DNA from: an uncultured Pirellulaceae bacterium
GTDB taxonomy: Bacteria; Planctomycetota; Planctomycetia; Pirellulales; Pirellulaceae
Length of the DNA stretch: 37,825 nucleotides
Assembly (NCBI GenBank): GCA_938010615.1
Contig: CALLUY010000076.1
Location: forward strand, 1 to 37,825
Reading direction: 5' to 3'
Position 1 is the first letter of the stretch. Every line of letters begins with the position of its first letter. The position numbers were made by a program, and so were the translations under genes. Shown here one piece after another: positions 6,036 through 35,761 of the stretch. The notes under the pieces were generated by a model. The model saw only the letters and a list, made by a program, of their open reading frames with translations, was not told the origin of the DNA and made no database searches.

Positions 6036-6235
6036 TGAATCAGCTGGCGGGAAGTTGCAAGGTGTTAATAGACCGTCAAAGATATTGTCCAAATACCGTG
6101 GCCATCATTGGGAGTCTCGATTTTATTCGATGGATCCAAGATTAACAACGATTTCGCGGCTTTATCCGCATAACCCATGCAATCTCGTGCAGACAGGCCG
6201 GTCAAAGAGGCCTCCGCACGCCAGACTCACACCGT

Positions 6236-16480: not shown

Positions 16481-16606
16481 TAACCTATAAGGCCGGATCA
16501 AGAAAACACCTCAATAGCCGGAGCCGCGGACGTCACCAAGAAGTTGGACAGTGTTCAAAGAATTCAAATTGGGATACCGTGTTTTCCCAGCTCCGACAAT
16601 TCTGAC

Positions 16607-16950
16607 TTTCAGTCACGAAGTGACGACATGTATTTGCCATGGACGCAAGTCCGTGGTTACATTTAATGAATCGCCACAGAGTGCCGAAGGCACGGCAGGA
16701 ACCAAGCTTTGCCCTACCGCAATTTTCCTGTCGTCCTTTCAGGACTGCCGATTAATGCGTCATCGTTTCCATGGACTTGCGTCCATGGCTATTGCATGCC
16801 GTGCTTTCAGCACTAAACACTGCAACTTCAAACTTAACGAGATAGTCGGCTTTCGCTCCGCGAAAGTATGTCAAACGCTACTTTCGCGGAGCGAAAGGCG
16901 ACAATAGCGCAACTTCAAAACTAACACGGGTTAGGATATGTTTGGACAGA
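16607..16950. repeat. Palindrome-array element A (left end truncated)
   Basis: Noncoding array of short hairpins. Present are GTGCCGAAGGCAC, TCCTTTCAGGA, CCATGGACTTGCGTCCATGG, GTGCTTTCAGCAC and an 18-bp unit CTTTCGCTCCGCGAAAGT at 16850-16867 whose inverse copy lies at 16880-16897. The segment 16607-16838 matches element D (about 35511-35735) in reverse orientation with few differences. The right edge has the family terminal motif, here AACTTCAAAACTAACACGGG followed by TTAGGAT; the internal GCAACTTCAAACTTAACG is a second copy of it. The matching left terminal motif is missing, which suggests truncation next to the IS110 debris. Confidence 0.85.
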
Positions 16951-17036
16951 GAGGGCGTCTTTGCTGAAGCTGTCTACTGAAAAACACCGAACAACTCTCG
17001 CACTCAAACTGAGTCTGACTTTAAGCGTGACAAAAT

Positions 17037-17064
17037 TTGGTTTCGCGGAGAGTTCGCCTATACT
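17037..17064 (+). promoter_or_regulatory. Candidate sigma70-type promoter of the lipoprotein gene
   Basis: TTGGTT (17037-17042), a 16-bp spacer and TATACT (17059-17064) precede the lipoprotein ATG by 39 bp. The -10 matches consensus at five of six positions, the -35 at three. A single consensus-scored reading, not tested. Confidence 0.4.
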
Positions 17065-17103
17065 GACGTTCGCGATCTTTCAGGTCATTCACAGGACAGA
17101 AAA

Positions 17104-17547
17104 ATGAAATCTATCCGACTTTTCTCAATCGCATCCCTGTTGATGCTCTGCTTCACGGTCGGATGCAATCCGCCAACGCCAAAAAAGAAAGTTGCCAAAG
17201 CAGAAGGGGGCGCCACTGGGATCCTTAACAAAACAACCACGAAGGTTGGTGAATGGGATCCGGACGCCGGACTGGAAATCGTCGTTGAAGATGGCGAAGA
17301 CATCAACATGATCAATCGAAACATGAAGACACTTGGGAAGGTCACTCATCAGTCCGCGAAATGGAAGGTTCACAGAGCGCTTGAGATGTTTCGCGCGACA
17401 AAAGGTCGCTATCCCAAAAGCCATGAAGAGTTTATGAAAAAAGTATTTCATCCAGGAATCAAAAATCTTCCGGAGCCGCTCACGACTTGCGAATATCAAT
17501 ACGACGTGGAAAACCACGAGCTGTTGATCGTCAAAAAGAAGCAGTAG
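17104..17547 (+). CDS. Small lipoprotein of unknown function
   Basis: 147-residue lipoprotein. The signal peptide (IRLFSIASLLMLCFTVGC) ends in a lipobox-like TVGC, giving Cys21 as the lipidated residue. A Lys/Pro linker follows (NPPTPKKKVAKAE). The C-terminal part (about 80-145) contains AKWKVHRALEMFRATKGRYP and SHEEFMKK, resembling the short alpha segment seen in planctomycete pilin-like or type II secretion-associated proteins (a helix followed by GRYP). The ATG at 17104 has AGGACAG nine bases upstream. It lies between repeat element A and the beta-helix gene and is unlikely to be in an operon with either. No precise function is assigned. Confidence 0.8.
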   Translation: MKSIRLFSIASLLMLCFTVGCNPPTPKKKVAKAEGGATGILNKTTTKVGEWDPDAGLEIVVEDGEDINMINRNMKTLGKVTHQSAKWKVHRALEMFRATKGRYPKSHEEFMKKVFHPGIKNLPEPLTTCEYQYDVENHELLIVKKKQ

Positions 17548-17686
17548 CAAACCAGCATGCGAGTGTGGCCACATGCCCCTATCACAACCATTGCAATCGG
17601 CAAGATTGAACACGTGAACTGTTTTTTTGGACCGAGAATGCCCACGAGTCGATGCGGTGAGTATCCGCAAATTTTTGGGCAAACTC

Positions 17687-20443
17687 ATGCATCGAAAGTC
17701 AAACAGTCGTAGGCAGAATTCAGTCGTGGCCTATCAGCGTCTTGAAAGCAAGACCATGTTGGCCACGATCGTCGTAGACACCCTCACAGATTCAGTCACG
17801 CCGGTCGCGGACGGCCTGGCAAGCCTGAGGGAAGCCGTTGAAGCGGCCAACAGAGATCAACCTTTTGGTGATGCGCCCGCTGGTAGTGGCGCTGACGATA
17901 TTGTGTTTGATGCGTCTTTGAGCGGAAAGGAATTGATACTCGCAGGTCAGCAGATCCTCATTCGTTCTGCTTTAACGATCGACGGTGATATCAATTTGAA
18001 TGCCGTTCAACAAAGCCGGCACTTTCGCATCGCAACCGATGAACCTGTTTCACTTTCACAGCTTACTCTCTTCAACGGCGTTGCAACCTCGGGTGGTTCT
18101 CTCGAAGTGAGAGGTGCCAATGTCTCTCTGGACGGAATGACTTTCAGAAACAATGTCGCGGAGGCTGCTGGAGGTGCAATCTTCCTTAGATCTGGGCAGC
18201 TCAACATCAATGAGACGCTGTTTGAACGAAACCGCACAACCTCAGACTCAGGCAACGGTGGCGCGATCCACAGTGATTCTGCTCAGCTCGAGATCAGTGA
18301 CTCAACGTTTACCAACAACTCCGCCGCGCGGGCACGGGACGGTTCGGTCCACGTGCTTCACGGAAGCGCAACCATTGAGAACAGCACATTTGAAAAGACG
18401 GCCGATGCGCTCACGCCTGTTTCCGCGCGATCCGGCGGGTTTATTGCGAATCTGGGTTCGACGGTAGTTTTCAACAGCCAATTCAATTCAGGGCTGGCTC
18501 GAACAGCCGGCGGAGCTATTCAGAATCTCGGTCGCTTGGAAGTTCAAAGCTCCCGTTTCTTTGACAACGGAGCTCAGACTTCAGAGAACCTGACTGGTAC
18601 TGAAAAGGGAGGTGCGATTTACTCAACCGGGAGTCTCAATGTTTCGGGCCGATCCGTCTTCGATAACAATTCCGCGTCCCTTGGTGGCGCAGTCTTTGCA
18701 ACGGGCCCATTTTCGGCCTCAAGCCCAAGCCGATTCCAGTCCAACAGCGCACGCATTGGCGGAGCTATGAGATTGATTGGCGATACTTTTCATCTTGATG
18801 ATGTGGTCTTTTCCGTGAACCAGTCCTCAGGGCGCGGCGGCGCAATTTCGGTGTTCGATAGTCAACTGAGCATTGTGAACCCGAGATTTCACAGCAACGG
18901 TTCAACAGACGCCGCTGATGGATTAGTGACGCAACGAGGCGGAGCAATCGATGCCGTTGATACAGACATCGATATCTCTGTGACGCGTCATGACGTTGGA
19001 ATAACTGGAGGCTTTAATCAAAACCAGGCATTGATCGCCGGAGGCCAGATTGCGATGTTCGGGGGAGCTCTGAATATGACTACAAATGCGCCATCGACAT
19101 CCGTCCGTTTAGTAGATTTTTCAGACGGAGCTCCTACCGCCAGAGGAGGGGCCATCTTCGTCAACGACGTTGATGTTTCAATACAGAACGCGGTCATCGG
19201 CGGACATCGAGTAGAAAACGCAGGGGGTGCTCTCTACCTTCATAATTCAAGAGTTGAAATTTCGGACAGTCGCGTTTCTGGGTTCAGTAACGAATTCGCT
19301 GGTGCCGTATTTGCAACTGCAGGCTCTGATGTTCACATCGTGGATTCAAGCTTTGACGATGCATCCGCGAAAAATAACGGTGGTGCAATTCGTGTAAATC
19401 CAACTGCCGTTGTACGCATTGAGAACTCTGGCTTTAACAATGCAAGACTGACCGCAGAGGCACCAACTACGACTCGCGGCGGAGCCATTTACAATCTTGG
19501 CCGTCTTTCAATCACGGGATCGGAATTTTTCCAAAACCGAGCCTCAAATCAACCCTTTGATCAAGTCAAAGCTTTGGGCGGAGCCATCTTTAACAGTGGT
19601 GAGCTGACAATCGACTCCACCAGACTTCGGTCCAACACAGCGAATCAGGGTGGCGCAGTTTACTCCACTTCTCCGATCACAATTACCAACACAAGTTTCG
19701 AAGGCAACCGCACGGAAAGATTAGGAGAATCGCCAACTCATGGCGCAGCTCTTTTCCTGACTGCTGACGCCGATCTTTCAAATTCTGTCTTCACAAACAA
19801 CATTGCCAACAATGGCGGTGCCATTGCTTCATTTGCCGGTCAGATCGTCGGTCAAAACCTCACTTTTGGCGGAACTACTTTAGGACTCGGAAACATCGGT
19901 GGAGTAAACAATAGTTCGTTTCAAGGAGGTTTCGGAGGAGCAGTCTTCCTCTCGCATTCTGCCACCGCCCACTTTTCCAGTTCTACCTTTGAAAACAATT
20001 CCGCATCAAGACTTGGTGGAGCGATAGCCGTGTTTGCTTCGGAAAGCGTAACGCCGTCGTTGACCATTGATGGCGAGTCGCGATTCATCCAAAACAACAC
20101 GGTGACTTTCGGCGATGACAGCACGTTACTTTCGCGCGGCGGAGCGATTGGAACGTATCGCTCCACGATCCTTGTTCGTGATTCTGTTTTCGAAGAGAAC
20201 ACGGCCAATGGAGACGGTGGAGCTGTCTTTTTGGGAATCAATGCAAATGCGGAACTTCTGTTTGCTGATTTCGAATCGAATCAGTCTGAAAAGCGTGGCG
20301 GCGCGATCTTCAACTCCGGCAACTTGCTGCTTGCCGATTCAACCGTGGCCAGAAACGTCGCGTCCGTCGACGGAGGGCTTTCAGAATCAAGCTCTGCCTT
20401 GACGACGGTTGAGCGGACCGAATTCGTAGACAATCAACCTTGA
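17687..20443 (+). CDS. Pmp-like right-handed beta-helix surface protein, lacking a C-terminal barrel or anchor
   Basis: About 918 residues of repeats with GGAI/GGAV/GGAL and FxxN motifs (FRNNVAEAAGGAIFLRSG, FERNRTTSDSGNGGAI, FSVNQSSGRGGAIS), over twenty GGA units: the signature pair of chlamydial polymorphic membrane proteins and of parallel beta-helices. The N-terminus carries VVAYQRLESKTMLATIVV, the short 'LE-R/K-xLA' sequence seen at the start of many planctomycete secreted giants. The ATG at 17687 is chosen; a TTG at 17627 would add 20 residues. The chain stops within a repeat (TTVERTEFVDNQP), with no autotransporter barrel, dockerin or anchor, so it may be C-terminally shortened or released. 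It is probably an extracellular adhesin or lyase-type fold; no catalytic residues are assigned. Confidence 0.85.
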   Translation: MHRKSNSRRQNSVVAYQRLESKTMLATIVVDTLTDSVTPVADGLASLREAVEAANRDQPFGDAPAGSGADDIVFDASLSGKELILAGQQILIRSALTIDGDINLNAVQQSRHFRIATDEPVSLSQLTLFNGVATSGGSLEVRGANVSLDGMTFRNNVAEAAGGAIFLRSGQLNINETLFERNRTTSDSGNGGAIHSDSAQLEISDSTFTNNSAARARDGSVHVLHGSATIENSTFEKTADALTPVSARSGGFIANLGSTVVFNSQFNSGLARTAGGAIQNLGRLEVQSSRFFDNGAQTSENLTGTEKGGAIYSTGSLNVSGRSVFDNNSASLGGAVFATGPFSASSPSRFQSNSARIGGAMRLIGDTFHLDDVVFSVNQSSGRGGAISVFDSQLSIVNPRFHSNGSTDAADGLVTQRGGAIDAVDTDIDISVTRHDVGITGGFNQNQALIAGGQIAMFGGALNMTTNAPSTSVRLVDFSDGAPTARGGAIFVNDVDVSIQNAVIGGHRVENAGGALYLHNSRVEISDSRVSGFSNEFAGAVFATAGSDVHIVDSSFDDASAKNNGGAIRVNPTAVVRIENSGFNNARLTAEAPTTTRGGAIYNLGRLSITGSEFFQNRASNQPFDQVKALGGAIFNSGELTIDSTRLRSNTANQGGAVYSTSPITITNTSFEGNRTERLGESPTHGAALFLTADADLSNSVFTNNIANNGGAIASFAGQIVGQNLTFGGTTLGLGNIGGVNNSSFQGGFGGAVFLSHSATAHFSSSTFENNSASRLGGAIAVFASESVTPSLTIDGESRFIQNNTVTFGDDSTLLSRGGAIGTYRSTILVRDSVFEENTANGDGGAVFLGINANAELLFADFESNQSEKRGGAIFNSGNLLLADSTVARNVASVDGGLSESSSALTTVERTEFVDNQP

Positions 20444-20489
20444 ATCAAGTGCGTCGGAACTTGAAGAAGCTTGCAGCGTAGCTACCTTC

Positions 20490-21851
20490 CTACACGTCGC
20501 CGACGGTTCCCGTTGAATCGCCGAACCGTTTCAAATCTGTCACGCCCATTCGATGAGCCAACGTCATGTGCATGTTGGCCAACGGCGTTTCTTTGTAGTC
20601 GACGTAGCGACCGGTGCTCATGTCGCCGCCGCCCTGCCCTGCCATAATGATTGGCAAGTTCACGTGCGTGTGGCGGTTTCCATCAGCGTTTCCGCTGCCG
20701 AACATGATTTGCGAATTGTGCAATAGCGAGTGACCATCTTCGTCCTTCACTTCTTCCATTCGCTGCAGAAACTTACCTAGCTGCTGAACGTACCAACGGT
20801 CAATCGTCTTCACTTTGTCGATCGCATCCTGCTTGTTCTGGTGATGGGAAAGCTCATGATGGCCTTCCACAACTCCAATTTCGCTAAAAGACCGATTGCT
20901 ACCGTCATGTGCAAGACATAGCGTCGCCACGCGAGTCGAATCGGTTTGGAACGCCAACGTCAACAGCTCAAACATCATCTGCATGTGCTCCGCGTACGAA
21001 ACGGGAACGCCCTCAGGAGTCTGTGCTTCGGTTTCGACATCGCCGTGACGTTCGGCACGCTCAATCCTAGATTCGATTTCACGAACCGAAGTAAAGTACT
21101 CATCCAGCTTCATTCGGTCTGTGCGTTGCATTCGCTGCTGCATTTTCTTCGCGTCATCCATCACGAAATCCAACACGGATCGTTGTTGGCTTCGACGCAA
21201 TTTCAAATTCGCCAACCGTTGCCCCGGAGTTCCAGCGCCAAAAAGCCGCTCGAACACCAACCGCGGATTCGATTCCGAAGCCATTGGAGTCGTCGGAGTC
21301 TTCCAAGAGATATTGTACTGATAAGCACACGAGTAGCCCGAGTCGCAACTGCCGCTACGCCGATCGGACTCGCAACTGAGTTCCAGCGATGGCAAGCGTG
21401 TCAGATGTCCGATCTTTTCGGCAATCACTTGGTCGATTGAAACGCCCGCGCGAAGATCCGTCGAGCTTTTGTTTAAGCGAACGTTCGTCAGGAAGGTTCC
21501 GCCGCCGCGTGCGTGATCTCCGCCGCCGTCGGGTCCGGGATTGGCGGAAACGTTGTCGAGTCCTCCCATGATTTGGATCGAATCGCGAACTGGCTTGAGC
21601 GATTCCAGCGTCTCGCTGAATTGATATTCCTTACCCGTCGACTCTGGCCACCAAGCAGAAGGAATGGCGCCATTAGGGAAGTACAGAAACGCAGTCCGCA
21701 GCGGTGCACCGGTTGCCGTTTGAGCAAGCGCCTTTTCAGCGCCAACCGGCATCGCCGATGCCAGAACGGAACCTGTTTTCAAAGAGGCCAGTGTTGGCAA
21801 CGCAATCGCTGCTCCGACGCCTCGCAGGAATGTTCGACGATTCTGATTCAT
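20490..21851 (-). CDS. DUF1552 exported protein, Tat substrate
   Basis: DUF1552 family protein, a planctomycete/verrucomicrobial family of unknown role, usually encoded next to DUF1592-type cytochromes. The N-terminus NQNRRTFLRGVGAAIALPTLASL is a twin-arginine signal (RRTFLRG), so the folded protein is exported, perhaps with cofactor. Middle motifs are GGGDHARGGGTFLTNVRLN and CESDRRSGSCDSGYSCAYQYNISW. The C-terminal part is HMQMMFELLTLAFQTDSTRVATL and later SQIMFGSGNADGNRHTHVNLPII, reminiscent of the alkaline-phosphatase-like DUF1501/1552 fold. The ATG at 21851 with GGAAA upstream is preferred over an in-frame TTG at 21863. It is the last gene of the three-gene operon. Confidence 0.9.
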   Translation of the reverse strand: MNQNRRTFLRGVGAAIALPTLASLKTGSVLASAMPVGAEKALAQTATGAPLRTAFLYFPNGAIPSAWWPESTGKEYQFSETLESLKPVRDSIQIMGGLDNVSANPGPDGGGDHARGGGTFLTNVRLNKSSTDLRAGVSIDQVIAEKIGHLTRLPSLELSCESDRRSGSCDSGYSCAYQYNISWKTPTTPMASESNPRLVFERLFGAGTPGQRLANLKLRRSQQRSVLDFVMDDAKKMQQRMQRTDRMKLDEYFTSVREIESRIERAERHGDVETEAQTPEGVPVSYAEHMQMMFELLTLAFQTDSTRVATLCLAHDGSNRSFSEIGVVEGHHELSHHQNKQDAIDKVKTIDRWYVQQLGKFLQRMEEVKDEDGHSLLHNSQIMFGSGNADGNRHTHVNLPIIMAGQGGGDMSTGRYVDYKETPLANMHMTLAHRMGVTDLKRFGDSTGTVGDV

Positions 21852-21855
21852 GCTG

Positions 21856-21899
21856 GTTTCCAATTAATGCGACAGCAGTTTCCAATTAACGCGACACAA
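21856..21899. repeat. Two direct 22-bp repeats in the DUF1552 leader
   Basis: GTTTCCAATTAATGCGACAG (21856-) is repeated as GTTTCCAATTAACGCGACAC (21878-), period 22, with a few mismatches. On the coding strand each unit brings TTAATTGGAAAC, so the ribosome-site-like GGAA sequence is duplicated. It lies in the 79-bp gap between the cytochrome and DUF1552 genes. Confidence 0.8.
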
Positions 21900-21930
21900 A
21901 CGGCTCAGCATTATCATACCTCACCGCATG

Positions 21931-24420
21931 CTATTTTTTCGACAATTTCGCGTCCGCTTCATGACGCATTCGCTGAAATGCGACCGAATCGACGACTGCT
22001 CGAAGCAGCTCAGATCCGCTGCCACCGTTATCTTTAACCCGCTTAACGATGCGATCGACCGTCGGAACATCGTAGTATTCCAAAGATCTACCCAACGCAA
22101 AGGTTAGAACTTTCTCGGCAACGCAGTGGTAAATTGCATCCTGGTGGTCCGTCGCGAGGACCTTCTTCAGTTCCCCAAGGTCCTCAAACGCCTCACCAGT
22201 CACCAGTTCGCCGGAGACGTCGATTGATTCATCAGGACGCTGTCGTCCCAGCGGATCGAAATTTTCCAACGCCAACCCAAGCGGATCCATGCGGTTGTGA
22301 CACGAACTACAGAGTGCACTTTCGCGGTGGATCGCCAACGCATCACGTAGCGAAACCCGTTTTCCATCTTCAGTCGTTTCGGAAGCTTCCAGCGATGGAA
22401 TGTCCGGCGGCGGAGCACCTGTCGGCATACCCAAAATGTTCTCCAGCAAAAACAAACCACGCTTTACTGGCGACGTTCGATCGGGGTTTGAAGTCACAGC
22501 CAACATGGAACCATGCCCTAGCAATCCGCCACGAAGGCTACCCTCAGGCAGTTCAACCAAACGCATTTCTTTACCTTCGACGCCTTCGATTCCGTAATGC
22601 TCCGCAAGTCGTTCGTCGAGAAACGTGTAGTCGCTATCGATCAGCTCCGTCAGATTTTTGTCTTCACTGATAATGTGTTCGATCAGCATCTCTGTCTCGC
22701 GTCGCATCGACTGACGCAACCTATCGTTCAACTCAACCTTTCCAGCCTGCTTGAAAATTGGTCGCAGTGCGGTGAGGAGTTCTTCGCGTTCCAGTTTGCC
22801 TTTCTCGTCGAGCTTCCGTTTCTGCGTTTTTCGCAACTCACGAAACCGCTCAAATTTGCTCTGGATCTCAGGATCAGGATTTTCTCTCATCAATACGGAA
22901 AACGAATTGATCGACACGCCTTCAACGTCGCGAGTCTGCAGCCATTGGCCAACAAAGTTGCGATAGAAAGATTTGAATCGGCGATCTTTCATCATCCGCT
23001 GGAGCTGAGAGTCGAGATTTTCGCGAAGCTTGTTCTCTCCTGCCAGTTTCAACAATTCCTCATCCGGCGTTGACGACCACAGAAAGTAAGACAACCGAGA
23101 CGCCAACGAAAATTCGTCGATCAAAACGTGATTCTCTGACTCGGGATCCGCAGCGAACTCTTCGCGAAACAAAAATCGTGGCGAAGCCAAAACCGCAACC
23201 ATTGCCTGCTGAATCCCGGACTCGAAAGACCCTTCTTTGTCTTGCCAGATTCCTTGAGCTAATTCGCAAAGCCTCCTGACCGTTTCGTCATCTGCCGGGC
23301 GACGGAAAGCTCGCGTTAAAAACGGCCTGATCATTCGCTCGGCGTACTTCAGTCGCTCTTCGTCGGACTCCGGAATCGGCTCCTTGAAGAATGCGGCATG
23401 ATCTCCCGGGACAATTTGGAACTCCTCCGGTAGTGGCCCCCGAACGAACATATCCTCGAATCGAACTTGTAGCTTACGGCCCTGCTCCTCTTCGGTGATC
23501 GGTGTCAACTCGACGCGAATCGAATGTTTGCCTTGGGTTAGCTCCCGCTCAAAAGAAAACGGCGTCCGCTTCCATGGATCGCGACCGTAGGAATCGTTAA
23601 TCAGCTCTTCATCGTCCAAGAACACTTTTACTTGGCACCGATTGTCATCCGTTGCATTTTCGATGTACTCCTCAGCCATGACCAGAACGAAATCGAAAGA
23701 ATACTGCTGAGTGGTGTCGAGCTCAAATTCCAACTTTGCAGTACGCGGCTCATAAAACGGAATCGAAAGGTTATCGTCATCAATGCACTCGTCCGGCACG
23801 TCGAAATCATGTCCAACAAACCGTTGTGATGGAGTCACCTTACCGACTAGCGGCACAACCTGATTGGCGATCGCCTGCGCCGCGTCGAGATATTTCTCCA
23901 TCAACATTGGAGAAATCGAAAGCACATCCGCAAGATTATCGAAGCCTTCGCCGCTATCGTCGGGCGGAAAGTTGACTGTCGTATCGAAATCGACTTTCAC
24001 AAGGTCACGAATCGTGTTTCGATACTCTTCACGATTGAGTCGCCGAACCGTCACGCGTCCCGGATCGGGATTCTTCGCGTCGTGCTTGAAGACATCCGAA
24101 ATGATCCAAGCTTGAAGCTCTTCGTTTTGCTCTGGTTCCAATTGCTCCGCATTGATGGGCGGCATCAATCCAGTTCGCAATTGCTTCAGCACGCGGTTCC
24201 ACAACTTTGGATCGCCCGCCTCAGGATCGTCTTCATCGACCAGATGATCAAATGTGACGCCACCTTCTTCGCCGCCGCCAGCATGACAATCAAAGCAATG
24301 GTTTTCCAAAATCGGAATGATCGTTTCGGTCAAGCGATCATCTGCGCTTGCCTGCGGAGTCCATGCCAACGCAACACCGAAAATCAGGACAGCAATTGCT
24401 TGTTTGGTTTGGTTCGTCAA
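21931..24420 (-). CDS. Planctomycete c-type cytochrome protein (PSCyt1/DUF1587/1592/1588/1585)
   Basis: 829-residue exported multi-domain protein. The TTG start at 24420 is forced: there is no upstream ATG, AGAAGG lies 9 bp before it, and it yields a signal peptide (AIAVLIFGVALAWTPQASA). Domain order: PSCyt1 with heme motif CFDCH (about 42-46); DUF1587 with VTVRRLNREEYRNTIRDLV and FPPDDSGEGFDN; a carbohydrate-binding-like middle; DUF1595 MIRPFLTRAFRRPADDE; DUF1592 IQQAMVAVLASPRFLFREEF; DUF1588 DRTSPVKRGLFLLENILGMP; DUF1585 with second heme motif CSSCHNRMDPLGLALENFD. Two CxxCH sites imply periplasmic electron transfer. These proteins are abundant in planctomycetes; their substrates are not established. 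It lies between the DUF1080 and DUF1552 genes. Confidence 0.93.
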   Translation of the reverse strand: MTNQTKQAIAVLIFGVALAWTPQASADDRLTETIIPILENHCFDCHAGGGEEGGVTFDHLVDEDDPEAGDPKLWNRVLKQLRTGLMPPINAEQLEPEQNEELQAWIISDVFKHDAKNPDPGRVTVRRLNREEYRNTIRDLVKVDFDTTVNFPPDDSGEGFDNLADVLSISPMLMEKYLDAAQAIANQVVPLVGKVTPSQRFVGHDFDVPDECIDDDNLSIPFYEPRTAKLEFELDTTQQYSFDFVLVMAEEYIENATDDNRCQVKVFLDDEELINDSYGRDPWKRTPFSFERELTQGKHSIRVELTPITEEEQGRKLQVRFEDMFVRGPLPEEFQIVPGDHAAFFKEPIPESDEERLKYAERMIRPFLTRAFRRPADDETVRRLCELAQGIWQDKEGSFESGIQQAMVAVLASPRFLFREEFAADPESENHVLIDEFSLASRLSYFLWSSTPDEELLKLAGENKLRENLDSQLQRMMKDRRFKSFYRNFVGQWLQTRDVEGVSINSFSVLMRENPDPEIQSKFERFRELRKTQKRKLDEKGKLEREELLTALRPIFKQAGKVELNDRLRQSMRRETEMLIEHIISEDKNLTELIDSDYTFLDERLAEHYGIEGVEGKEMRLVELPEGSLRGGLLGHGSMLAVTSNPDRTSPVKRGLFLLENILGMPTGAPPPDIPSLEASETTEDGKRVSLRDALAIHRESALCSSCHNRMDPLGLALENFDPLGRQRPDESIDVSGELVTGEAFEDLGELKKVLATDHQDAIYHCVAEKVLTFALGRSLEYYDVPTVDRIVKRVKDNGGSGSELLRAVVDSVAFQRMRHEADAKLSKK

Positions 24421-24453
24421 TTCAATGCCTTCTGTTTCTGCTTCGTCGATTCA

Positions 24454-25083: not shown

Positions 25084-25210
25084 CGATTTCCTCGATCATG
25101 GATTAAGAGTCGACGACCATGATGGCTCTACCAGAACGCGTTTGCAAGCGCAACAGATAGGCCAGCGACTGAGCTGACGAACTAACATTGGCTGAGGCGG
25201 CAAAGGCCGA

Positions 25211-25552
25211 GATCACAACCCGAAGCGTAGGCGAGGTGCAGCTGGCACCTCGCTTACGCTCTTTGAAGTTGCAGTGTTTGCGTTTAGGGGCAAAGCCCCG
25301 TTCATTTGCCTAGCCCAGCCCATCGGGCTCATCGGGCTGGGATTGCGTTGGACGATCACTTAGGGCTGAAAGCCCGACCAGTTGCGGCGCATGTGCGCCC
25401 TAACCGAAGCAACTTGCCGGACCTTTGGTCCTAAAATAATCGGGGGAATCTAAGTCCCAGCCCGACGGGCTGGGCTAGGCAAGAAACGGGGCTTTGCCCC
25501 TAAACGCAACCACTGCAACTTCAAAACTCACGCGTCGAGTTGTGATTGGCAT
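25211..25552. repeat. Palindrome-array element B (complete, nested giant inverted repeat)
   Basis: Flanked by ends that are inverse copies of one another: the left contains CACAACCCGAAGCGTAGGCG and TTTGAAGTTGCAGTG, the right CACTGCAACTTCAAAACTCA then CGCGTCGAGTTGTGATTGG. Inside, arms 25278-25342 and 25455-25509 are inverse repeats of about 55-65 bp. These arms contain GGGGCAAAGCCCC and AGCCCATCGGGCT. The centre carries GGGCTGAAAGCCC, GCGCATGTGCGC and GGACCTTTGGTCC. No reading frame is supported. Confidence 0.85.
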
Positions 25553-25798
25553 AAATTCACTCGCTCGCGCTCCATTTTGGATTGAGATTCGGTTTGCAAG
25601 TGCATGTTTCCCAAAAGTCCACTGAATTGAGGGCTTTGTGCAAAAATGCTGTTCCAAATCCTCAACTTAACCACGATCCAGAAATAAAAGTTTTTCTGTT
25701 TGGATTTCATCACTTTTCGCGGGTAAGCGATGACGCAAAAATGTGTCAAAAGAATTCGTACTCTAATTTGCGAATCGATACGCAGTAAAGGCTTGGAA

Positions 25799-27973: not shown

Positions 27974-28120
27974 TGCGTGGTTGCGGCTTCGAGCCGCAGC
28001 GATTGGACGTGTAGTTGCATGTAGCTCATGTGCACTTGCCGTCATTTAACGTAGGACGGGCACCTTGCCCGTCAGAATCGATTCGGCCAGCAAACCACAA
28101 CCAACTGCCTCGTCACACCC
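27974..28120 (+). other. Intercistronic region with two short hairpins
   Basis: 147 bp between ovoA and the ATP-grasp gene. Two hairpins are visible: TGCGGCT-TCG-AGCCGCA (27982-27998) and GACGGGCA-CCT-TGCCCGTC (28055-28073). Neither is followed by a U-run, so they are not typical terminators. They may be processing sites or stray copies of the palindrome modules seen in the repeat elements. No Shine-Dalgarno is seen before the next ATG. Confidence 0.55.
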
Positions 28121-29281: not shown

Positions 29282-30642
29282 ACACCAAAGACCTGACGAC
29301 TGGTTCCATTCCGCGTCACATTCGCGACCTTGCGTTGCCAGCCAGTATTGGGCTGTTTTTTCAGACGATGTACAACGTCGTCGATACTTACTACGCCGGA
29401 CAATTTTCAGAAGTTGCGCTCGCTGCCGTCGGGTTGAGCTTTCCAGTTTTCTTGTTGGTCGTCGCTGCCAGCAGCGGACTGTCACGAGGTGCTGCTGGAC
29501 TAATTTCCAACGCAATTGGAGCCAAATCGACTTCCGATCAGAAGCGATACATTTCACAGAGCCTTTCGCTAGGGCTGTTCCTTGCAGGCTTGCTGACCGT
29601 TGTTGGTCTATTCATCGCGGAGCCGATTTTTAGATTCCTCGGGGCTGAAGGTGAGTTCCTACGGCTCGCAAAAGCTTACATTTACCCGATCTTTCTGGGT
29701 AACGTGTTCTTTATTGTTGGCGGTGTCAGCAATGCTGTTCTGACGTCCAGTGGCGACACGAAAACTTATGGCAGCGTTTTGATCGTAGGATTTTTCTTGA
29801 ATCTGATTTTTGATCCGTGGTTCATGAACGGAGGTTTCGGCCTCCCCGCGATGGGCGTTGCAGGAATCGCTTGGGCCACGGTGCTGATTCAGTTCTTTGG
29901 CAGCGTTTATCTTTTTTCCACGATTGTCCGCCGCGGGCTATTGGAGATCGGAGAATTGAAGTCCATGATTCCGAACTTCAGGACGTGGTGGGAAATTGCC
30001 GTGCAAGCTCTGCCAGCGACGTTCAACATTATGTCGATCGCAATCGGCTTCTTTGCGATCAACTGGTTCTTGGAGCGATATGGCGTCGAAGCGGTAGCGG
30101 CTTACACAGCGACGACTCGGATCGAACAGATCGCGTTGATGCCCACATTTGGCTTGTACGCGTCGATCATGGCGATGGTCGGGCAAAACAACGGAGCCGG
30201 AAAAATTGCTCGCATCAAAGAAACGATGTGGAACTGTAACGTTTTTGGCGTCTCGGTGAATCTTGTGATGGCCAGTCTAATGTTTCTATTTTCTCGACAG
30301 CTAATGGATATCTTTACCGATGACCCGGAAGTGATCGAACTTGGCGTGACGTGTCTAAATGTAATGGCTCCGATTCATTGGTCTTACATTTTGTCAGCGA
30401 CACACATCGCGATGCTGCAAGCCTTAAAGCGGCCGATGTATGGATTCTTCGAAGCCATCACGCGAAAAATTGTCTTGCCGTTGCCGATCCTATGGTTGTT
30501 GGTTGTCCTGTGGAACCAAGACATCGTTTGGATCTGGTACTGCAATGCGGCGATCAATATCGTGGTGACTTGCGTGACGATCTTCTATGCGTGGAGAGTC
30601 TTGAACAGCCTTCCGGATGAGCCCGTTTTCGCTGATCGCTGA
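29278..30642 (+). CDS. MATE family efflux transporter
   Basis: Multidrug-and-toxic-compound-extrusion transporter of 454 aa with twelve hydrophobic segments. Family motifs are DLALPASIGLFFQTMYNVVDTYYAG in the first helices and VAAYTATTRIEQIALMPTFG in the second half. The start is TTG at 29278, overlapping the ATP-grasp stop (TTGA); no other start fits the N-terminal sequence MNTKDLTTGSIPRHIRD. Translational coupling to the ATP-grasp gene suggests export of its product. MATE proteins use a Na+ or H+ gradient; coupling and substrate are not visible from sequence. Confidence 0.93.
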   Translation: MNTKDLTTGSIPRHIRDLALPASIGLFFQTMYNVVDTYYAGQFSEVALAAVGLSFPVFLLVVAASSGLSRGAAGLISNAIGAKSTSDQKRYISQSLSLGLFLAGLLTVVGLFIAEPIFRFLGAEGEFLRLAKAYIYPIFLGNVFFIVGGVSNAVLTSSGDTKTYGSVLIVGFFLNLIFDPWFMNGGFGLPAMGVAGIAWATVLIQFFGSVYLFSTIVRRGLLEIGELKSMIPNFRTWWEIAVQALPATFNIMSIAIGFFAINWFLERYGVEAVAAYTATTRIEQIALMPTFGLYASIMAMVGQNNGAGKIARIKETMWNCNVFGVSVNLVMASLMFLFSRQLMDIFTDDPEVIELGVTCLNVMAPIHWSYILSATHIAMLQALKRPMYGFFEAITRKIVLPLPILWLLVVLWNQDIVWIWYCNAAINIVVTCVTIFYAWRVLNSLPDEPVFADR

Positions 30643-30689
30643 TGCGGCGATCCCAATTCAAGCCCGATGCGTAATGGGATATCACATAG

Positions 30690-31014
30690 TTTGGTTTGTC
30701 CGTGCAAAACCTAACCCGACGCGTAAGCTGCACCTCGCTCACGCTTTTTAAAGTTGCACTATATCGGCCCATCCCGAAGGGATTTAAGCTAGTAGCCGGT
30801 GATAAGCGCAGCGCCATCACCGGATTCGGTCGACAGCAAACATGATCCCGAAGGGATCACAGCGGGCGTTTGCTGCGATCCCTTCGGGATCGAATCGTGC
30901 ATCCTTGTGGGTCCGGAGGTGGTCGCTACGCTCGACCTCCGGCTAATGGCTGAAATTCCTTCGGAATAAAAATGTCTGCAACTTCAAAACTCACACTTCG
31001 GGTTACGATTGGCA
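30690..31014. repeat. Palindrome-array element C (complete)
   Basis: Left end TTTGGTTTGTCCGTGCAAAA followed by CCTAACCCGACGCGTAAGCT; right end CTGCAACTTCAAAACTCACA then CTTCGGGTTACGATTGGCA, the inverse of the left core. Inner hairpins include GATCCCTTCGGGATC (30877-30891), CCGGAGGT/ACCTCCGG (30913-30942) and ATTCCTTCGGAAT (30955-30967). A bare AAGCCCGATGCGTAATGGG just left (30659-30678) looks like a stray terminal motif. No reading frame. Confidence 0.85.
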
Positions 31015-31062
31015 GAATCAAATTGCGTAACTCTCCGAATAGCCGAGCCTTGCGGGAGTCCG

Positions 31063-32763
31063 CTAATCGAGGCCCAGCGGAAATGCCTCTCGGAATTCGC
31101 GTTTCAGTTTCTCGAACCCTGTGAACTTTTTGGTCCAACCTGCCTTGATCGCGCTGACCATCACTCCGAGCATGAAACAGGCGAGCCCGACGCCGACGAA
31201 TTTTGCCAAACGTTCATTGCTTTGCCCGACTGAAAACTCAAGCAACGGAGAAGCAGCCAGTAGACATGCTCCGAAAGAAACGGCTGCCGATGAAAGATGC
31301 AATCGGCTCCTAGCGAATATGGAAATTGCGAGTCCGGCCGCCCCAAGTGCACAGACATATCCTGAGGCCACCATTGCGTATTGCGGACGAAGTAGCACGC
31401 TAACGGCGACTAGGCTTGCGATCATCGGGAGTGAAAACGCCAACATGATCTTTAGCTGTTTCGCGAACAGGCCGCTGAAGATACATACAATCAGACACGC
31501 GCAAAGCAACAGGAAGTTTAACGCCATGACTGCTTCGGTGCCGCTAAGCACCGAAAGCGGTTCGAACGAATCTGCGAGCCACGGAGTCGTTAAGTTGGCT
31601 GCCGGCACGCTGACGCAAGAACTCGCCAAAAACCAACTGCTGCCTTGAAAGAATCTCTCATACGAAGCGACACTCCAAGCCGCCAGAATCAAACAGGGCC
31701 ACGTTTGAACAAAAGTGAACTCGGAAACCAGTTCTCCGTTAGGCTGCATCATGCTCGCACCGAACAGCGACAACACGAGGAACGCTCCTGCGTTTTCGAC
31801 GCCGTCGAGCCAGACAACCAAGTACATTCCAACCACGACCAATGTCGTCATCCAAACTGGGGAACCAATCTCCGCCGAGATCTGGTCATAGAATGCCGTG
31901 TTGGAGAACATCGGCCACGCAACGGCAAGTGCAATGGAGCATGGCATCAGCAACATTGAAAAGAATAGGAGCTCTTGATCTTTTTCGGCGGATCCAATTT
32001 CGAACAGCAGCCATGTGACCGAAAGAGAGATTGGGACAAACATCCACGTGCCCAACATGCCATTGGCTGGAGTCGGGTCAAATGAAAGTCCCATCATCAC
32101 GGTGCGACCAATCAGTCCGATGATCGCAAGTACAAAAATTGAATACGGATAAAGCGGCCAGCGCCACGGCGTACCATTTTTTGCTGCGTATCGTTTTGTT
32201 TTTCGAATAGACGGAATCAGCGAAAGGATTGCTAGGCTTACAACGAACGGAAACAACAAAATGATGAATCGGCGGTCAAGTTCTGGCCACACCGACTCCT
32301 GCATTGAAAACAGGTAAGGAAAGAAAAAGCTTGTCGCCAACATCGCGTATAGTGGCAGCCTGAATAATGCTCGGAAGCGAATGCCCAGCGTCCACACCAA
32401 CGACTCCGTGATCACGATGGCGAAAGCGAATCCCGCCAAGGCCAACGAAATGGCTGTCGCGGGATTCGTGACGAACAATCCATCGATGCTGGCCGACAAC
32501 GCCATGAACAGTAGCAGCAACACCATGAAGATTGAACGCGCGTCGTCCCACACTCTTCCGAATCGAACGATGACCCACGCGGTTAACGCCAGTAACGTTG
32601 CATATCCGACGAATAGGCTGGCTAGGAACCACGGATTTGTCGCGAAGCTCGCTTCTTTCAAAGAAACGTGGAAGCCGTAAAGAATGACTGCTGCACTGAT
32701 CAGATAAAAAGGATTGTGGTTGTAAAGAAATTTAACAAAGCCTGGCCCCTTAACGTCATGCAT
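31063..32763 (-). CDS. Polytopic integral membrane protein of unknown function
   Basis: 566 aa with about fourteen hydrophobic segments from residue 20 to 545 and short polar loops; it ends in a basic cytoplasmic tail (KKFTGFEKLKREFREAFPLG). The ATG at 32763 has GAGGAGCG upstream. No motif of a known transporter, glycosyltransferase or oligosaccharyl enzyme is recognised; the layout, with long runs of helices and few charged residues, could suit a lipid flippase or a channel. It is encoded 220 bp downstream of the ApbE-NqrM fusion on the same strand, so co-transcription is possible. I do not recognise the family. Confidence 0.85.
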   Translation of the reverse strand: MHDVKGPGFVKFLYNHNPFYLISAAVILYGFHVSLKEASFATNPWFLASLFVGYATLLALTAWVIVRFGRVWDDARSIFMVLLLLFMALSASIDGLFVTNPATAISLALAGFAFAIVITESLVWTLGIRFRALFRLPLYAMLATSFFFPYLFSMQESVWPELDRRFIILLFPFVVSLAILSLIPSIRKTKRYAAKNGTPWRWPLYPYSIFVLAIIGLIGRTVMMGLSFDPTPANGMLGTWMFVPISLSVTWLLFEIGSAEKDQELLFFSMLLMPCSIALAVAWPMFSNTAFYDQISAEIGSPVWMTTLVVVGMYLVVWLDGVENAGAFLVLSLFGASMMQPNGELVSEFTFVQTWPCLILAAWSVASYERFFQGSSWFLASSCVSVPAANLTTPWLADSFEPLSVLSGTEAVMALNFLLLCACLIVCIFSGLFAKQLKIMLAFSLPMIASLVAVSVLLRPQYAMVASGYVCALGAAGLAISIFARSRLHLSSAAVSFGACLLAASPLLEFSVGQSNERLAKFVGVGLACFMLGVMVSAIKAGWTKKFTGFEKLKREFREAFPLGLD

Positions 32764-32983
32764 CTTGCGCTCCTCGAGGAAGGTGAATTCCCGAGTCCAC
32801 GAACTTGATGGGGCGCGATACGTAGTTGTTTAGCTTAAACGATAACCAATCGCCATCGAGATTGCGGGCTCAGTCGGAAGGAGAAGTGTCGAGCGACGAA
32901 GTGTTAGTAATCTCTCAGTTGAACTTCCTACGCCGGGGACAGCGAAATTGTTCGCCGTTTTGCTCAAGAACAAATTCTTCACG

Positions 32984-34315
32984 CTACGTCGCAGTATTTG
33001 AAGCTTCTGTTTCTTCGCAATCGATGGTTGGCTTAGAACAAATTCCGCAAACGGATTCGCCGTCTTCGTTCGTCATGTTGGCGATGCCTCCGCAAGAACC
33101 AGTGACTGGCTTGTTGTTGAAAATTGCGCCAACCGCCATGCCCAGAATCATCAAACAAAAAACCACAAACGTGGCGATGAACACAGGCAAGATTTCACTG
33201 CGCGATGATTTCCTTGGCTTTGATTCTTCTTCGTCGGCAATGGTCTGTATCGTTTTTTCAGCTTCCCCAGCAACTGGAAAATCTTGAGACGCATGGGTGA
33301 CATGTGGCAAGCCGTCATTAGAATCGCTCCGCGAAATCATAAGCAATGGGCTGCCAAGTTTTTCACACAGTTCAGTTCCCTTTTCGCGCCCCATGACCAT
33401 CACGGCGGTTGCCAGTGCATCGGCAGTCATGCAATCGTCTGCGACAACGGATGCGATCGCCATTTTGTGTTTTACCGGTCGCCCTGTTTTAGGATCAATC
33501 GTGTGAGAGTAACGTTGTCCGTTGATGTCGATGAAATTCCGATAGTCTCCAGATGTTGCGACAGCTTTGCCAGACAATTCGACGACTCGATGAGAACGCT
33601 CAGTATCGGCGAGGCCCGTTTCGCTGTTGGGTTTTTCTATGCCGACATTCCAAGGACCGCCTGCCGCTCGCTCTCCACTTGTTGTCACTTCGCCACCCAC
33701 TTCAACCATGAAGTTTTCATAGCCAAGTTGTTTCAATGAACGGCCGACTCGATCAACGGCGTAACCTTTCGCGATGGCGGACAAATCAAGTTGGGCTTTC
33801 GGATTCCGTTTTCGAAGTGCGGGCGGATCGGAGCGGACTTCTATGTTTTGATAGCCGACCAGATCCATTAGTTCTTTGATCCGTCCATCGGAGGGCAGTT
33901 CCGGTTTGACTTTTTTGTTGGGGCCAAAATTCCAAGCTTTGACTAGCGGCCCAACGGTAGGATCAAAAGCGCCGTCGGTAAGCTCACAGATTTCCAAAGC
34001 TCTGCCGACAACAGTAGCTGTCTCCTCGTCAACGCTCTGCCATTCGCTCGAGTCAGCGCGATTGAATTTGGAAATGTCTGAGTCTTCCAGATAGGTCGAC
34101 ATCAGTTCGTTGACTCGCTGCAGCGAATCGTTGACTGCTGACTGAACCGCTTTCAATTTTTTCACTTCCGAATCTTCGGTCACAACGAGGACTTTGAATG
34201 GGATTGGTCCCATCGTTCGGCCGCGGACTTCGATCGACTGTTGAGCGCTGCAGAGCGAATGGGAGAGCAGAAACGCAACGAGAAGTGGAGCGATACGTTG
34301 GATGCGAAAAGGCAT
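32984..34315 (-). CDS. FAD:protein FMN transferase fused to NqrM-like Cys-rich domain
   Basis: 443-aa exported flavin transferase. After a signal peptide (MPFRIQRIAPLLVAFLLSHS) comes ApbE (about 30-330) with GRTMGPIPFKV, DLSAIAKGYAVDRV, VEVGGEVTTSGERAAGG, ATSGDYRNF, YSHTIDPKTGRPV and MTADALATAVMVMG, all typical. From about 380 a transmembrane helix (VFIATFVVFCLMILGMAVGA) and a Cys cluster (GSCGGIANM, SVCGICSKP, IDCEE) match NqrM (DUF539), the iron-delivery factor of Na+-translocating NQR. ApbE attaches FMN to NqrB/NqrC; the two genes are adjacent in Vibrio nqr operons. One chain doing both would be a maturation factor; no nqr genes are in view. The ATG at 34315 is chosen; a GTG at 34345 is possible. 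Confidence 0.9.
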   Translation of the reverse strand: MPFRIQRIAPLLVAFLLSHSLCSAQQSIEVRGRTMGPIPFKVLVVTEDSEVKKLKAVQSAVNDSLQRVNELMSTYLEDSDISKFNRADSSEWQSVDEETATVVGRALEICELTDGAFDPTVGPLVKAWNFGPNKKVKPELPSDGRIKELMDLVGYQNIEVRSDPPALRKRNPKAQLDLSAIAKGYAVDRVGRSLKQLGYENFMVEVGGEVTTSGERAAGGPWNVGIEKPNSETGLADTERSHRVVELSGKAVATSGDYRNFIDINGQRYSHTIDPKTGRPVKHKMAIASVVADDCMTADALATAVMVMGREKGTELCEKLGSPLLMISRSDSNDGLPHVTHASQDFPVAGEAEKTIQTIADEEESKPRKSSRSEILPVFIATFVVFCLMILGMAVGAIFNNKPVTGSCGGIANMTNEDGESVCGICSKPTIDCEETEASNTAT

Positions 34316-34447
34316 GACGAGCCGGGTTGCTGAAGTTAGGTTCACGGAGCACTCATTGTAATTCGATGAGACGGTGGACTAATCGATTCTATCGGTGCGA
34401 TCGGATGATTCATCGCATATCGTCAAAGTTTACTAAGGCTGTAGACT

Positions 34448-34476
34448 TTGTTACCGAACGCCGAAAATGATAGCAT
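34448..34476 (+). promoter_or_regulatory. Candidate promoter of the sigma-factor gene
   Basis: TTGTTA (34448-34453), a 17-bp spacer and TAGCAT (34471-34476), with an extended -10 TGA before it. This matches four of six positions in each hexamer. It would give a leader of about 30 nt before the ATG at 34513. No strong ribosome site follows. Confidence 0.35.
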
Positions 34477-34512
34477 CACCCCTGAAGCAATTGATACCCT
34501 GCGAGCAACTCC

Positions 34513-35424
34513 ATGAGCGAAGAAATCGAGAAACCTGTTGACCCAGAGATGTCAGACTTCAAACGTGCTCGGAAAAATCGTACCGAGTCCAGTTTGCAGA
34601 GTCCTCTTGAGACATACCTTCGGGAAATCAACGAGACTCGATTGCTTACCGCAGACGAGGAAAAGGAACTTGCTCGAGCGATCGCCAAGGGTGACGTTCA
34701 GGCGAGGGATCGTATGGTTCGAGCTAACTTGCGATTGGTTGTGAACATCGCTCGGGGATACACCAGCAAAGGTCTTGGTCTGCAAGATTTGATCGAAGAA
34801 GGTAACCTCGGTCTGCTGCGAGCCGTCGAAGGTTTCGATCCGAATGTTGGTACGCGATTCAGTACGTACGCAAGTTACTGGATTAAGCAGTCGATCAAAC
34901 GAGCTTTGATTAACTCAGCGAAGACGATTCGAATTCCGGCCTACATGGTCGAGTTGCTTTCTAAGTGGCGTCGGGCCACGATTCGATTGACCGAAGAGCT
35001 TCGTCGCAATCCGACTCCCGAAGAGATCGGCCGTTTGTTGGGATTGCCGAAACGAAAGCTTCCAATCATCAAGAAAGCCATCCAGATCTACAATGCGACT
35101 CCGCAAACAGATCAGCCTGACGGCGGTTGGACGTTGAGCGAAATGGTGATGGATGATCGAATGCGTTCGCCAGAAGACGAGCTGATTGAGACTGATGTGA
35201 TGAAGCACATCAAGACGATGATGGGTGACCTCGATGAGCGTGCTGCGGCGGTTCTGCGAATGCGTTTTGGCTTGGAGGGTTTGGAGCCACACACATTGAA
35301 GGAAATCGGCGAGAAGCTTGGGTTGACTCGTGAACGTGTTCGGCAGATCGAAACCGAAACGCTAAAGCGGTTGGGCGATGGCTTGCGTGATCCTCACGAC
35401 ATGGAAATCTCGATGCCGTTCTAA
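34513..35424 (+). CDS. RpoD/SigA-type sigma-70 factor (group 2-like)
   Basis: 303-aa sigma factor without region 1.1. Region 1.2 begins SLQSPLETYLREINETRLLT; region 2 reads RLVVNIARGYTSKGLGLQDLIEEG and FDPNVGTRFSTYASYWIKQS (core-binding and -10 recognition); region 3 follows RIPAYMVELLSKWRRATIRL; region 4 ends LKEIGEKLGLTRERVRQIET (helix-turn-helix for the -35). Absence of the acidic 1.1 and short length make it a group 2 paralogue rather than the housekeeping factor. The ATG at 34513 is the only good start. It is divergent from ApbE-NqrM. Regulon unknown. Confidence 0.95.
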   Translation: MSEEIEKPVDPEMSDFKRARKNRTESSLQSPLETYLREINETRLLTADEEKELARAIAKGDVQARDRMVRANLRLVVNIARGYTSKGLGLQDLIEEGNLGLLRAVEGFDPNVGTRFSTYASYWIKQSIKRALINSAKTIRIPAYMVELLSKWRRATIRLTEELRRNPTPEEIGRLLGLPKRKLPIIKKAIQIYNATPQTDQPDGGWTLSEMVMDDRMRSPEDELIETDVMKHIKTMMGDLDERAAAVLRMRFGLEGLEPHTLKEIGEKLGLTRERVRQIETETLKRLGDGLRDPHDMEISMPF

Positions 35425-35442
35425 AAGTTGCGGTGCGAGAAG

Positions 35443-35469
35443 TTGCATGGATTTGATTTGTCCATGCAA
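35443..35469. other. Perfect 9-bp hairpin just after the sigma gene
   Basis: TTGCATGGA (35443-35451) and TCCATGCAA (35461-35469) form a stem with a 9-base loop. No T-run follows, so terminator function is weak. Its right arm merges with the outer edge of element D, where TCCRTGCAAA is shared with element C. Confidence 0.6.
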
Positions 35470-35761
35470 ATCCTAACCCGATGCGTGAGTTTCGAAGTTG
35501 CAGTGTTTAGTGCTGAAAGCACGGCATGTTCTAGCCATGGACGCAAGTCCATGGAAAACGTTGATGCATTAATCGGTAGTCCTGAAAGGACGGCAGGAAA
35601 ATTGCGGTCGTGCAAAGCTTGGCTTCTGCCGTGCCTTCGGCACTCCGCGGCGACTCATGAACCGTAACCACGGACTTGCGTCCGTGGCTAATACATGTCG
35701 TCACTTCGTGACTGAAAATGTGCAACTGCACCTCGCTAATGCGTCGGGTTGCGACTGGTAG
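35452..35761. repeat. Palindrome-array element D (complete)
   Basis: Left end TTTGTCCATGCAAATCCTAA then CCCGATGCGTGAGTTTCGAA and GTTGCAGTG; right end GTGCAACTGCACCTCGCTAA then TGCGTCGGGTTGCGACTGG, the inverse of the left core. Inner hairpins: GTGCTGAAAGCAC, CCATGGACGCAAGTCCATGG, TCCTGAAAGGA, GTGCCTTCGGCAC, CCACGGACTTGCGTCCGTGG and CAGTCACGAAGTGACG (read on the minus strand). Element A carries the same modules in reverse orientation. Confidence 0.88.

Follow-up and report, generated by a model that had tools for sequence, protein, structure and literature searches.

The insertion sequences (ISs) ISPsy8, ISPa11, ISPpu9, ISPpu10, ISRm19 and ISRm22 insert specifically into repetitive extragenic palindromes (REP), according to the available part of PMC1525189. 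Class-3 TnpA-Y1 transposases are found principally in Planctomycetes, Acidobacteria and Proteobacteria, and the structures flanking them possess a CnGA foot and can be high in copy number (PMC6006769, available part). Acido-Lenti-1 was presented as probably an RNA, with Acidobacteria and Lentisphaerae as its taxa, in the available part of PMC2864571. In this study, we analyzed a stretch of 37,825 nucleotides (the window) from an uncultured Pirellulaceae bacterium (assembly GCA_938010615.1, contig CALLUY010000076.1), which carries four elements, A to D, with palindromes in their interiors. It is highly probable that these are miniature inverted-repeat transposable elements (MITEs), here called element E, of an IS4/IS701-like DDE insertion sequence, that their interiors are hairpins of HUH transposons, and that they land in a long REP-like hairpin, here called REP1.

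The component parts are of known kinds. Element E shares with the REP-targeting ISs of PMC1525189 the specific insertion into extragenic palindromes, and differs from them, as far as that source is available, in its class-3-like hairpin target, its DDE_Tnp_1 enzyme and its MITEs with hairpins of other transposases; the comparison is by target and not by IS family. Like bacterial IS MITEs such as MITEAba12, it has no evident coding, the ends of an autonomous IS, a target duplication of fixed length and many copies, but its interior is a pair of REP/IS200-type hairpins, and several alternative cargoes are found under one pair of ends. REP1 resembles the repeats of class-3 TnpA-Y1 (PMC6006769) and of TIRtrons/TIRYT (PMC3733652), in the available parts of both sources, by its CCGA start, its Y1 gene with HUH and Y----Q motifs and its high copy number, whereas it is unlike them in that the hairpin also serves another transposon as landing site. 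The cargo pairs are similar to REP doublets (REPINs) and bacterial interspersed mosaic elements (BIMEs) with REP-associated tyrosine transposases (RAYTs) in being inverted hairpin pairs, in some of which an NTAG foot precedes the hairpin (by eye), but lie mainly inside a DDE-type MITE and are not free. The cargo of A and D is like the Rfam family RF01687 (Acido-Lenti-1), with three of four units above the gathering score; unlike the listing in the available part of PMC2864571, it is an inverted DNA hairpin unit and can flank IS200-type genes.

No description of this nesting, or of a link between Acido-Lenti-1 and IS200-type genes, was found in the literature searched, which was mostly without subscription journals and had ISfinder outside its range. 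A preliminary description of A to D, made from the sequence, had recognized no matching named family; this fails for the pieces alone, since REP1 conforms to class-3 TnpA-Y1 repeats already in the literature, and the A and D cargo belongs to RF01687. The insertion sequence described here has a target that is naturally narrow, and the nesting offers a testable answer to how REP-like hairpins can gain high copy number without a cognate enzyme.

Element E, its target duplication and its insertion-sequence relatives

The genome of the window (G000, with the window as its contig C76) is represented by a 4.70-Mb assembly that is 84% complete. Element E starts at YTTTGAAGTTGCA and possesses terminal inverted repeats. 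In 30 fetched loci, the flanks of the GAAGTTGCAGTG copies are constant from TTTTGAAGTTGCA inward; outside it they usually read as variants of CGCG(T/C)(A/G)AG, with unrelated sequence in some cases. After pairing of the ends, complete copies are mostly about 171, 243, 244 and 260 bp in size, with differing interiors, and 124 bp in Neorhodopirellula pilleata. At least five interiors were found under one pair of ends. A total of 56 exact copies of GAAGTTGCAGTG (three for the reversed control) and 135 of TTTGAAGTTGCAC (none for the control) were found in the assembly, about 95 copies' worth, so that four elements in 38 kb, called dense in the preliminary description, are indeed above the genome mean.

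Most copies of element E are inserted at CGCGYRAG, within the stem of REP1 and next to the hairpin foot, and insertion is associated with a duplication of 8 bp. The left and right 8-mers are identical in 15 of the 59 paired copies of G000 and agree in at least 7 of 8 positions in 27, compared with means of 2.6 (maximum 10) and 10.1 (maximum 22) after random re-pairing with 2000 shuffles. Among the matches listed from other genomes, 14 of 62 copies have exact 8-mers (shuffled mean 1.7, maximum 7, again 2000 shuffles). Lengths from 4 to 12 were scanned, and exact matches occur at 8 alone, save one at 9 among the copies of other genomes; such a duplication is the signature of a transposase that makes cuts staggered by 8 bp. 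Near or exact duplications were also found outside REP1, as GGCCAGAG / GACCAGAG and as ACCGGGAG twice around a 514-bp composite.

The site fits 55 of the 59 paired copies of G000 and, among the matches listed, 60 of 62 in other genomes, but both figures overstate the target fit because the loci were selected by target-site or REP1 patterns: the search pattern for other genomes included the target site, and many G000 loci were fetched by the REP1 motif. For ends that had been retrieved independently of the site, a fit to CGCGYRAG with at most one mismatch was observed in 23 of 28 cases in G000 and in 27 of 36 in N. pilleata, against a background of 0.5%. Junctions between target and end are also present, among the matches listed, in N. 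pilleata Pla100 and in other Pirellulaceae and planctomycete assemblies. Many copies of element E sit at contig ends, which explains some assembly breaks.

REP1, with the arms AACCCGACGCGTAAGCGAGG...CCTCGCTTACGCGTCGGGTT, is unoccupied at many places. In G000 it often lies inside a further repeat, hereafter the host repeat, which occurs both empty and occupied. Six copies of 156-160 bp are without paired E ends. Five copies are longer (330-428 bp), and four of them hold a complete element E of 172, 236, 243 or 260 bp; removal of E and one 8-mer leaves 157, 159, 155 and 160 bp, respectively, and the 8-bp duplication is exact in three of the four. The fifth long copy (330 bp) has one E end only.

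In other Pirellulales, insertion sequences of about 1.5 kb share the ends and the target of element E and encode an IS4/IS701-like DDE transposase, and element E is thus most likely a MITE of this type. Eight copies with both ends range from 1486 to 1559 bp. The sequence YTTTGAWGTTGC, with two mismatches at most, is found at both ends of full copies in genomes G371, G193 (four copies), G355, G307 and G078. The target duplication of the eight copies is exact in three, 7/8 in one, 6/8 in one and 5/5 at a contig end in one; in the remaining two, the target arms are inverted. Where ends were compared, element E of the Acido-Lenti-1 type resembles each of the two distinct IS ends over 19 bp, with one mismatch in each. 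Clustering of open reading frames (ORFs) beside unpaired ends gave no autonomous element at the first loci; one was later found in N. pilleata, where contig G040:C57 ends in an E-type end sequence beside a 469-residue DDE transposase, and ends of this type likewise mark the start or the stop of other copies and remnants in this genome. The transposase contains the DDE_Tnp_1 domain (PF01609, E value 5e-18, 66 bits with a cut-off of 23) and scores under the NCBIfam cut-offs of NF033540 (97.2 bits, 150 required) and NF033592 (63.2 bits, 115 required), and its best models are IS701/IS4. A search of a plasmid collection gave one weak match with 24% identity.

Two further observations concern single copies of this insertion sequence. 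At locus L290, on the same N. pilleata contig, the DDE insertion sequence is interrupted at its left end by an IS110-family element, and a matching left end is intact at C5. At locus L398 (G193), flanks of 34 bp that are reverse-complementary and extend past the target hairpin surround an IS copy, which suggests an inverted duplication after insertion.

Elements A to D in the window

Direct reading of the sequence confirmed the four elements at 16607-16950, 25211-25552, 30690-31014 and 35452-35761, together with their interior palindromes. Their features are as follows.

16487-16606 (+): left "F" module of A; related sequence forms the interior of the 172-bp E in locus L056 (by eye)
16607-16833 (-): element E of A with Acido-Lenti-1 cargo; one end at 16818-16833, other end lost
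16611-16656 (-): Acido-Lenti-1 unit of A; RF01687, 33.7 bits, under the gathering score of 37
16769-16814 (+): Acido-Lenti-1 unit of A, inverted; RF01687, 53.1 bits
16843-16912 (+): extra hairpin pair of A, similar to the flanks of the RAYT gene in locus L007; score 69, next 21, shuffled maximum 30
16907-16920 (+): right end of a second E in A (GCGCAACTTCAAAA)
25217-25260 (+): REP1 hairpin of B, the target, ending in the left 8-mer CTTACGCT; stem of 26 pairs after removal of E and one 8-mer, 15 with both kept
25261-25526 (+): element E of B (266 bp), with CTTTGAAGTTGCAGTG / CACTGCAACTTCAAAA as ends and paired hairpins as the "B" cargo; 8-mers CTTACGCT / CTCACGCG, 6/8
25283-25345 (+): left hairpin unit of B, similar to the flanks of the Y1 transposase gene in locus L004; score 41, next 20, shuffled maximum 24
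25440-25510 (+): right hairpin unit of B, same L004 family; score 35, next 21, shuffled maximum 25
30713-30745 (+): REP1 hairpin of C, shortened in the middle, ending in the left 8-mer CTCACGCT; piece 30711-30750 against the flanks of the HUH gene in locus L012, score 36, next 23, shuffled maximum 26
30746-30989 (+): element E of C, 244 bp, "C" cargo; 8-mers CTCACGCT / CTCACACT, 7/8
30766-30832 (+): left hairpin unit of C, similar to the flanks of the transposase gene in locus L001; score 68, next 22, shuffled maximum 28
30910-30970 (+): right hairpin unit of C, same L001 family; score 49, next 21, shuffled maximum 27
35475-35489 (+): left REP1 arm of D (direct reading)
35490-35726 (+): element E of D, carrying Acido-Lenti-1 units; TTTCGAAGTTGCAGTG as left end, truncated on the right after TGCAAC
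35509-35554 (-): left Acido-Lenti-1 unit of D; RF01687, 49.5 bits
35668-35713 (+): right Acido-Lenti-1 unit of D, inverted; RF01687, 49.6 bits
35727-35750 (+): right REP1 arm of D (direct reading)

The terminal motifs attributed to A to D are indeed shared, but exact AACCCGAYGCGTRAG occurs in the window just at the left of C (30713) and of D (35475); the outer motif at the left of B reads AACCCGAAGCGTAGG, and degenerate copies stand on the right. The genome contains 46 forward and 42 reverse exact matches to AACCCGAYGCGTRAG and none to the reversed-pattern control. However, this motif with its AACCCGA start, taken in the preliminary description as the end of the elements, belongs to the target site in the REP1 hairpin, and the mobile unit ends at YTTTGAAGTTGCA. 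The inversion of the ends claimed for B, C and D is present in B, with AAGTTGCAGTG inverted at both ends; C has the variant ends AAAGTTGCACTA / CTGCAACTTCAAAA, and D has one full end and a truncated right one. Element A consists of one end of its main unit, whose left end is lost, and the right end of a second unit; it shares its main cargo with D. Pairing of the outer motifs around hairpin arrays did not hold for many REP1 motifs, which are plain hairpins: an opposite arm lies within 80 bp in 41 of 108 motif matches on both strands. All four elements lie between plausible genes in the ORF table, as described, although a mechanical ORF of 118 aa (16551-16907) crosses A.

A polarity had been read from the two outermost classes of bases (TTTGTCC..CCT and GCCAATCAC). 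Both are inner flanks of the host repeat of about 156-160 bp carrying REP1, so the polarity is that of the host repeat. At several loci, among them L147, L139 and L122, a further repeat with the ends AGGAAATTGCATGG / CCATGCAATTTCCT encloses REP1 and is itself sometimes situated between the arms of another hairpin (CAAGCCCGAAGCGCAA). A second transposon with AGGAAATTGCATGG ends around REP1 was considered and rejected: the sizes at the 14 places listed fit the host repeat, no direct flanking duplication was seen, and at least two of the places (window 6024-6188 and 6049-6188, within an ORF) are chance. For the AGGAAATTGCATGG / CCATGCAATTTCCT repeat, no flanking duplication was found at the listed places, and no search for its enzyme was made.

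No orthologous empty site at D was readable in relatives: the D query aligns with the sigma-factor gene as far as about its end, at about 70-77% identity, but not with the intergenic stretch, and seven of 15 downstream stretches were not located. Immediately left of A, a fragment of an IS110-family transposase was found at 15527-16090 on the minus strand (PF01548, E value 3e-20).

The boundary findings, namely the terminal inverted repeats, the 8-bp duplication, the many copies, the empty and occupied hosts and the autonomous relatives with the same ends, bear out the earlier idea of a mobile noncoding family with MITE-like ends and modular palindrome cargo. As a whole, the observation of the preliminary description is partly confirmed and its interpretation partly supported.

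Cargo hairpins, REP1 and Acido-Lenti-1

The best local score of each module against the flanks of 17 transposase genes was determined, every module being shuffled 60 times, and each of four modules has one clear partner: the B cargo in L004, the C cargo in L001, the extra module of A in L007 and REP1 in L012. Three types of cargo in A, B and C thus each match the flanks of a separate HUH transposase gene in G000. A total of thirteen Y1/RAYT genes (L001-L013) were found in this genome, many with a hairpin family of their own by eye.

On contig C205 (L012), REP1 flanks a Y1 (HUH) transposase gene. The hairpin begins with CCGA, and its motif has 88 exact copies in G000; a 5' CnGA foot beside a transposase gene and a high copy number are what defines the class-3 TnpA-Y1 repeats. 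The L012 protein contains NHMH and, as its Y----Q motif, YVNEAQ, and the protein of L009 contains NHVH and YTLEAQ; these assignments are by motif reading.

The main cargo of A and D is an inverted pair of Acido-Lenti-1 units, three of them above the gathering score of 37 bits and one at 33.7. RF01687 has 201 matches in G000 at E values up to 1, and in the order it was found in 70 of 146 genomes at E values up to 1e-4, 62 of them above the family cut-off. An E end lies within 22 bp of the full unit in 37 of 54 cases on the left and 36 of 54 on the right in the fetched G000 loci, against a background of 2.5%. An earlier loose count of arms (91 left, 40 with an E end; 64 right, 40 with one) had also caught inner hairpins and was superseded by this count of full units.

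A Y1 transposase ORF was found in four of 23 Acido-Lenti-1 loci of other genomes, taken as one locus per genome, compared with none of 52 control loci (Fisher one-sided p about 0.007, by hand); the control loci are matches to window DNA, and several come from the same genomes. All four have above-gathering units on both sides of the gene, from overlapping to 163 bp off, and the nearest units on the two sides are oppositely oriented, counting one below the gathering score. The four neighbouring proteins match PF01797 with E values from 9e-28 to 1.2e-26 and NF033573 (IS200/IS605) with 67-80 bits (cut-off 55). The transposase of one of them (L312) has DHVQ in place of the HUH motif. No Acido-Lenti-1 unit was found at the 13 Y1 loci of G000.

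The Acido-Lenti-1 helices have 99.3% of their cells paired, and 51 cells are changed on both sides, a value compared with a shuffled mean of 10.8 and reached by 0 of 500 shuffles; for another of the five measures, further pair types, 37 of 500 shuffles came as high. The structure was derived from the same sequences, and the covariation therefore demonstrates conserved hairpins and does not distinguish DNA from RNA. Judged by the IS200-type genes that it flanks in the four loci, the motif is probably a transposon end and not a small RNA (sRNA), which suggests that the Rfam "sRNA" family Acido-Lenti-1 may consist of transposon ends, in which case such annotations need review. A congener (G014, locus L358) carries an element E of the Acido-Lenti-1 type at about 70% identity, with stems that are different yet paired, and the cargo type is hence old in the genus.

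Proposed mechanism and alternative explanations

The inverted ends, the target in the REP1 stem, the 8-bp duplication, the full-length insertion sequences elsewhere and the resemblance of the cargo to four kinds of hairpins of HUH genes, one of them Acido-Lenti-1, are established here. In the mechanism we propose, REP1 hairpins would have been seeded earlier by a class-3 TnpA-Y1 enzyme, and a DDE transposase acting in trans would move element E into them. The autonomous partner would be an insertion sequence of about 1.5 kb with TTTTGAAGTTGC ends, of which the derivative may have kept about 19 bp of each end, its interior replaced by inverted pairs of REP/IS200-type hairpins. The capture of these hairpins could have occurred through HUH insertion into element E or through their substitution for the IS interior, and the DDE transposon would thereby multiply the hairpins of HUH transposons. 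Copies with inverted REP1 arms may have lost the middle of the hairpin after insertion.

Several results weigh against this reading. An exact duplication is lacking in 44 of the 59 G000 copies, fewer than six of eight positions agree in 19, and four have inverted arms (at least 7/8). When E and one 8-mer are removed, the full REP1 hairpin is restored in 19 of the 58 copies but not in the other 39. Across all 58 the stem has a median of 12 pairs with or without the second 8-mer removed, compared with 8 in random pieces, which reach 24 at most; nested, one-armed or decayed copies are numerous. No match to the transposase was detected in G000 or in 39 relatives at E values up to 1e-10; the same query did detect the N. 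pilleata copy. Relatives of the transposase are present in just 10 of 396 genomes of the order (E values up to 1e-30). A MITE does not strictly need an autonomous partner within its own genome, and multi-copy sequence is often lost from such assemblies. Among the cargoes, the F module of A has no transposase partner among the 17 genes (best score 25, shuffled maximum 26), and the arms of D stand out against loci L305 and L308 of other genomes and not against L312 and L321. About one third of the full Acido-Lenti-1 units have no adjoining E end (17 of 54 left, 18 of 54 right), so the unit is either older than element E or has escaped from it.

The inverted arms also speak for an alternative in which the whole block from AACCCGA to TCGGGTT is mobile, as a large REPIN/BIME moved as single-stranded DNA by a class-3 HUH transposase, with the YTTTGAAGTTGCA ends merely internal. 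REP1 arms are inverted at both ends in 4 of 59 copies at 7/8 or better and in 7 of 59 at 6/8 or better, as they are in two of the eight autonomous IS copies, and a REP1-flanked HUH transposase gene does exist in L012. This explanation appears unlikely, as the direct 8-bp duplication far exceeds that of shuffled pairing, some E ends lie outside REP1, four of the five occupied hosts return to the size of the empty ones when E and 8 bp are subtracted, and a DDE transposase gene is bounded by the same ends. The presence of at least five interiors within one pair of ends would also conform to a site-specific exchange of cassettes, integron-like or by an invertase, with the ends as recombination sites and the cargo swapped between fixed sites; the duplication, the DDE gene between the same ends and the many dispersed ends fit transposition instead, and on this evidence we find such exchange hardly credible.

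Alternatively, the cargo could be functional sRNAs or terminators, conforming to the Rfam type, which would have spread through the usefulness of the RNA. The RF01687 matches above the gathering score, the strong covariation and the position of A to D between plausible genes agree with this, but DNA hairpins are equally expected to covary, the units are inverted pairs within a transposon, and their association with IS200-type transposase genes is absent from the control loci; an RNA role of this kind seems quite improbable. Beyond the nesting of HUH-transposon hairpins in MITEs of a DDE insertion sequence, the DDE family might be a general vehicle that repeatedly captures paired REP/IS200 ends as the whole of its interior and plants them in the REP hairpins of another HUH transposon without enzymes of their own, and Acido-Lenti-1 might be a DNA transposon end, and no RNA gene, amplified in G000 by this route. 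We put this forward tentatively, as a possibility that is somewhat doubtful.

A minor observation concerns the locus of the RAYT gene whose flanks resemble the extra hairpin pair of A: a group II intron match (RF02005, 134 bits) was found near this gene, at positions 1-214 of L007 on the minus strand.

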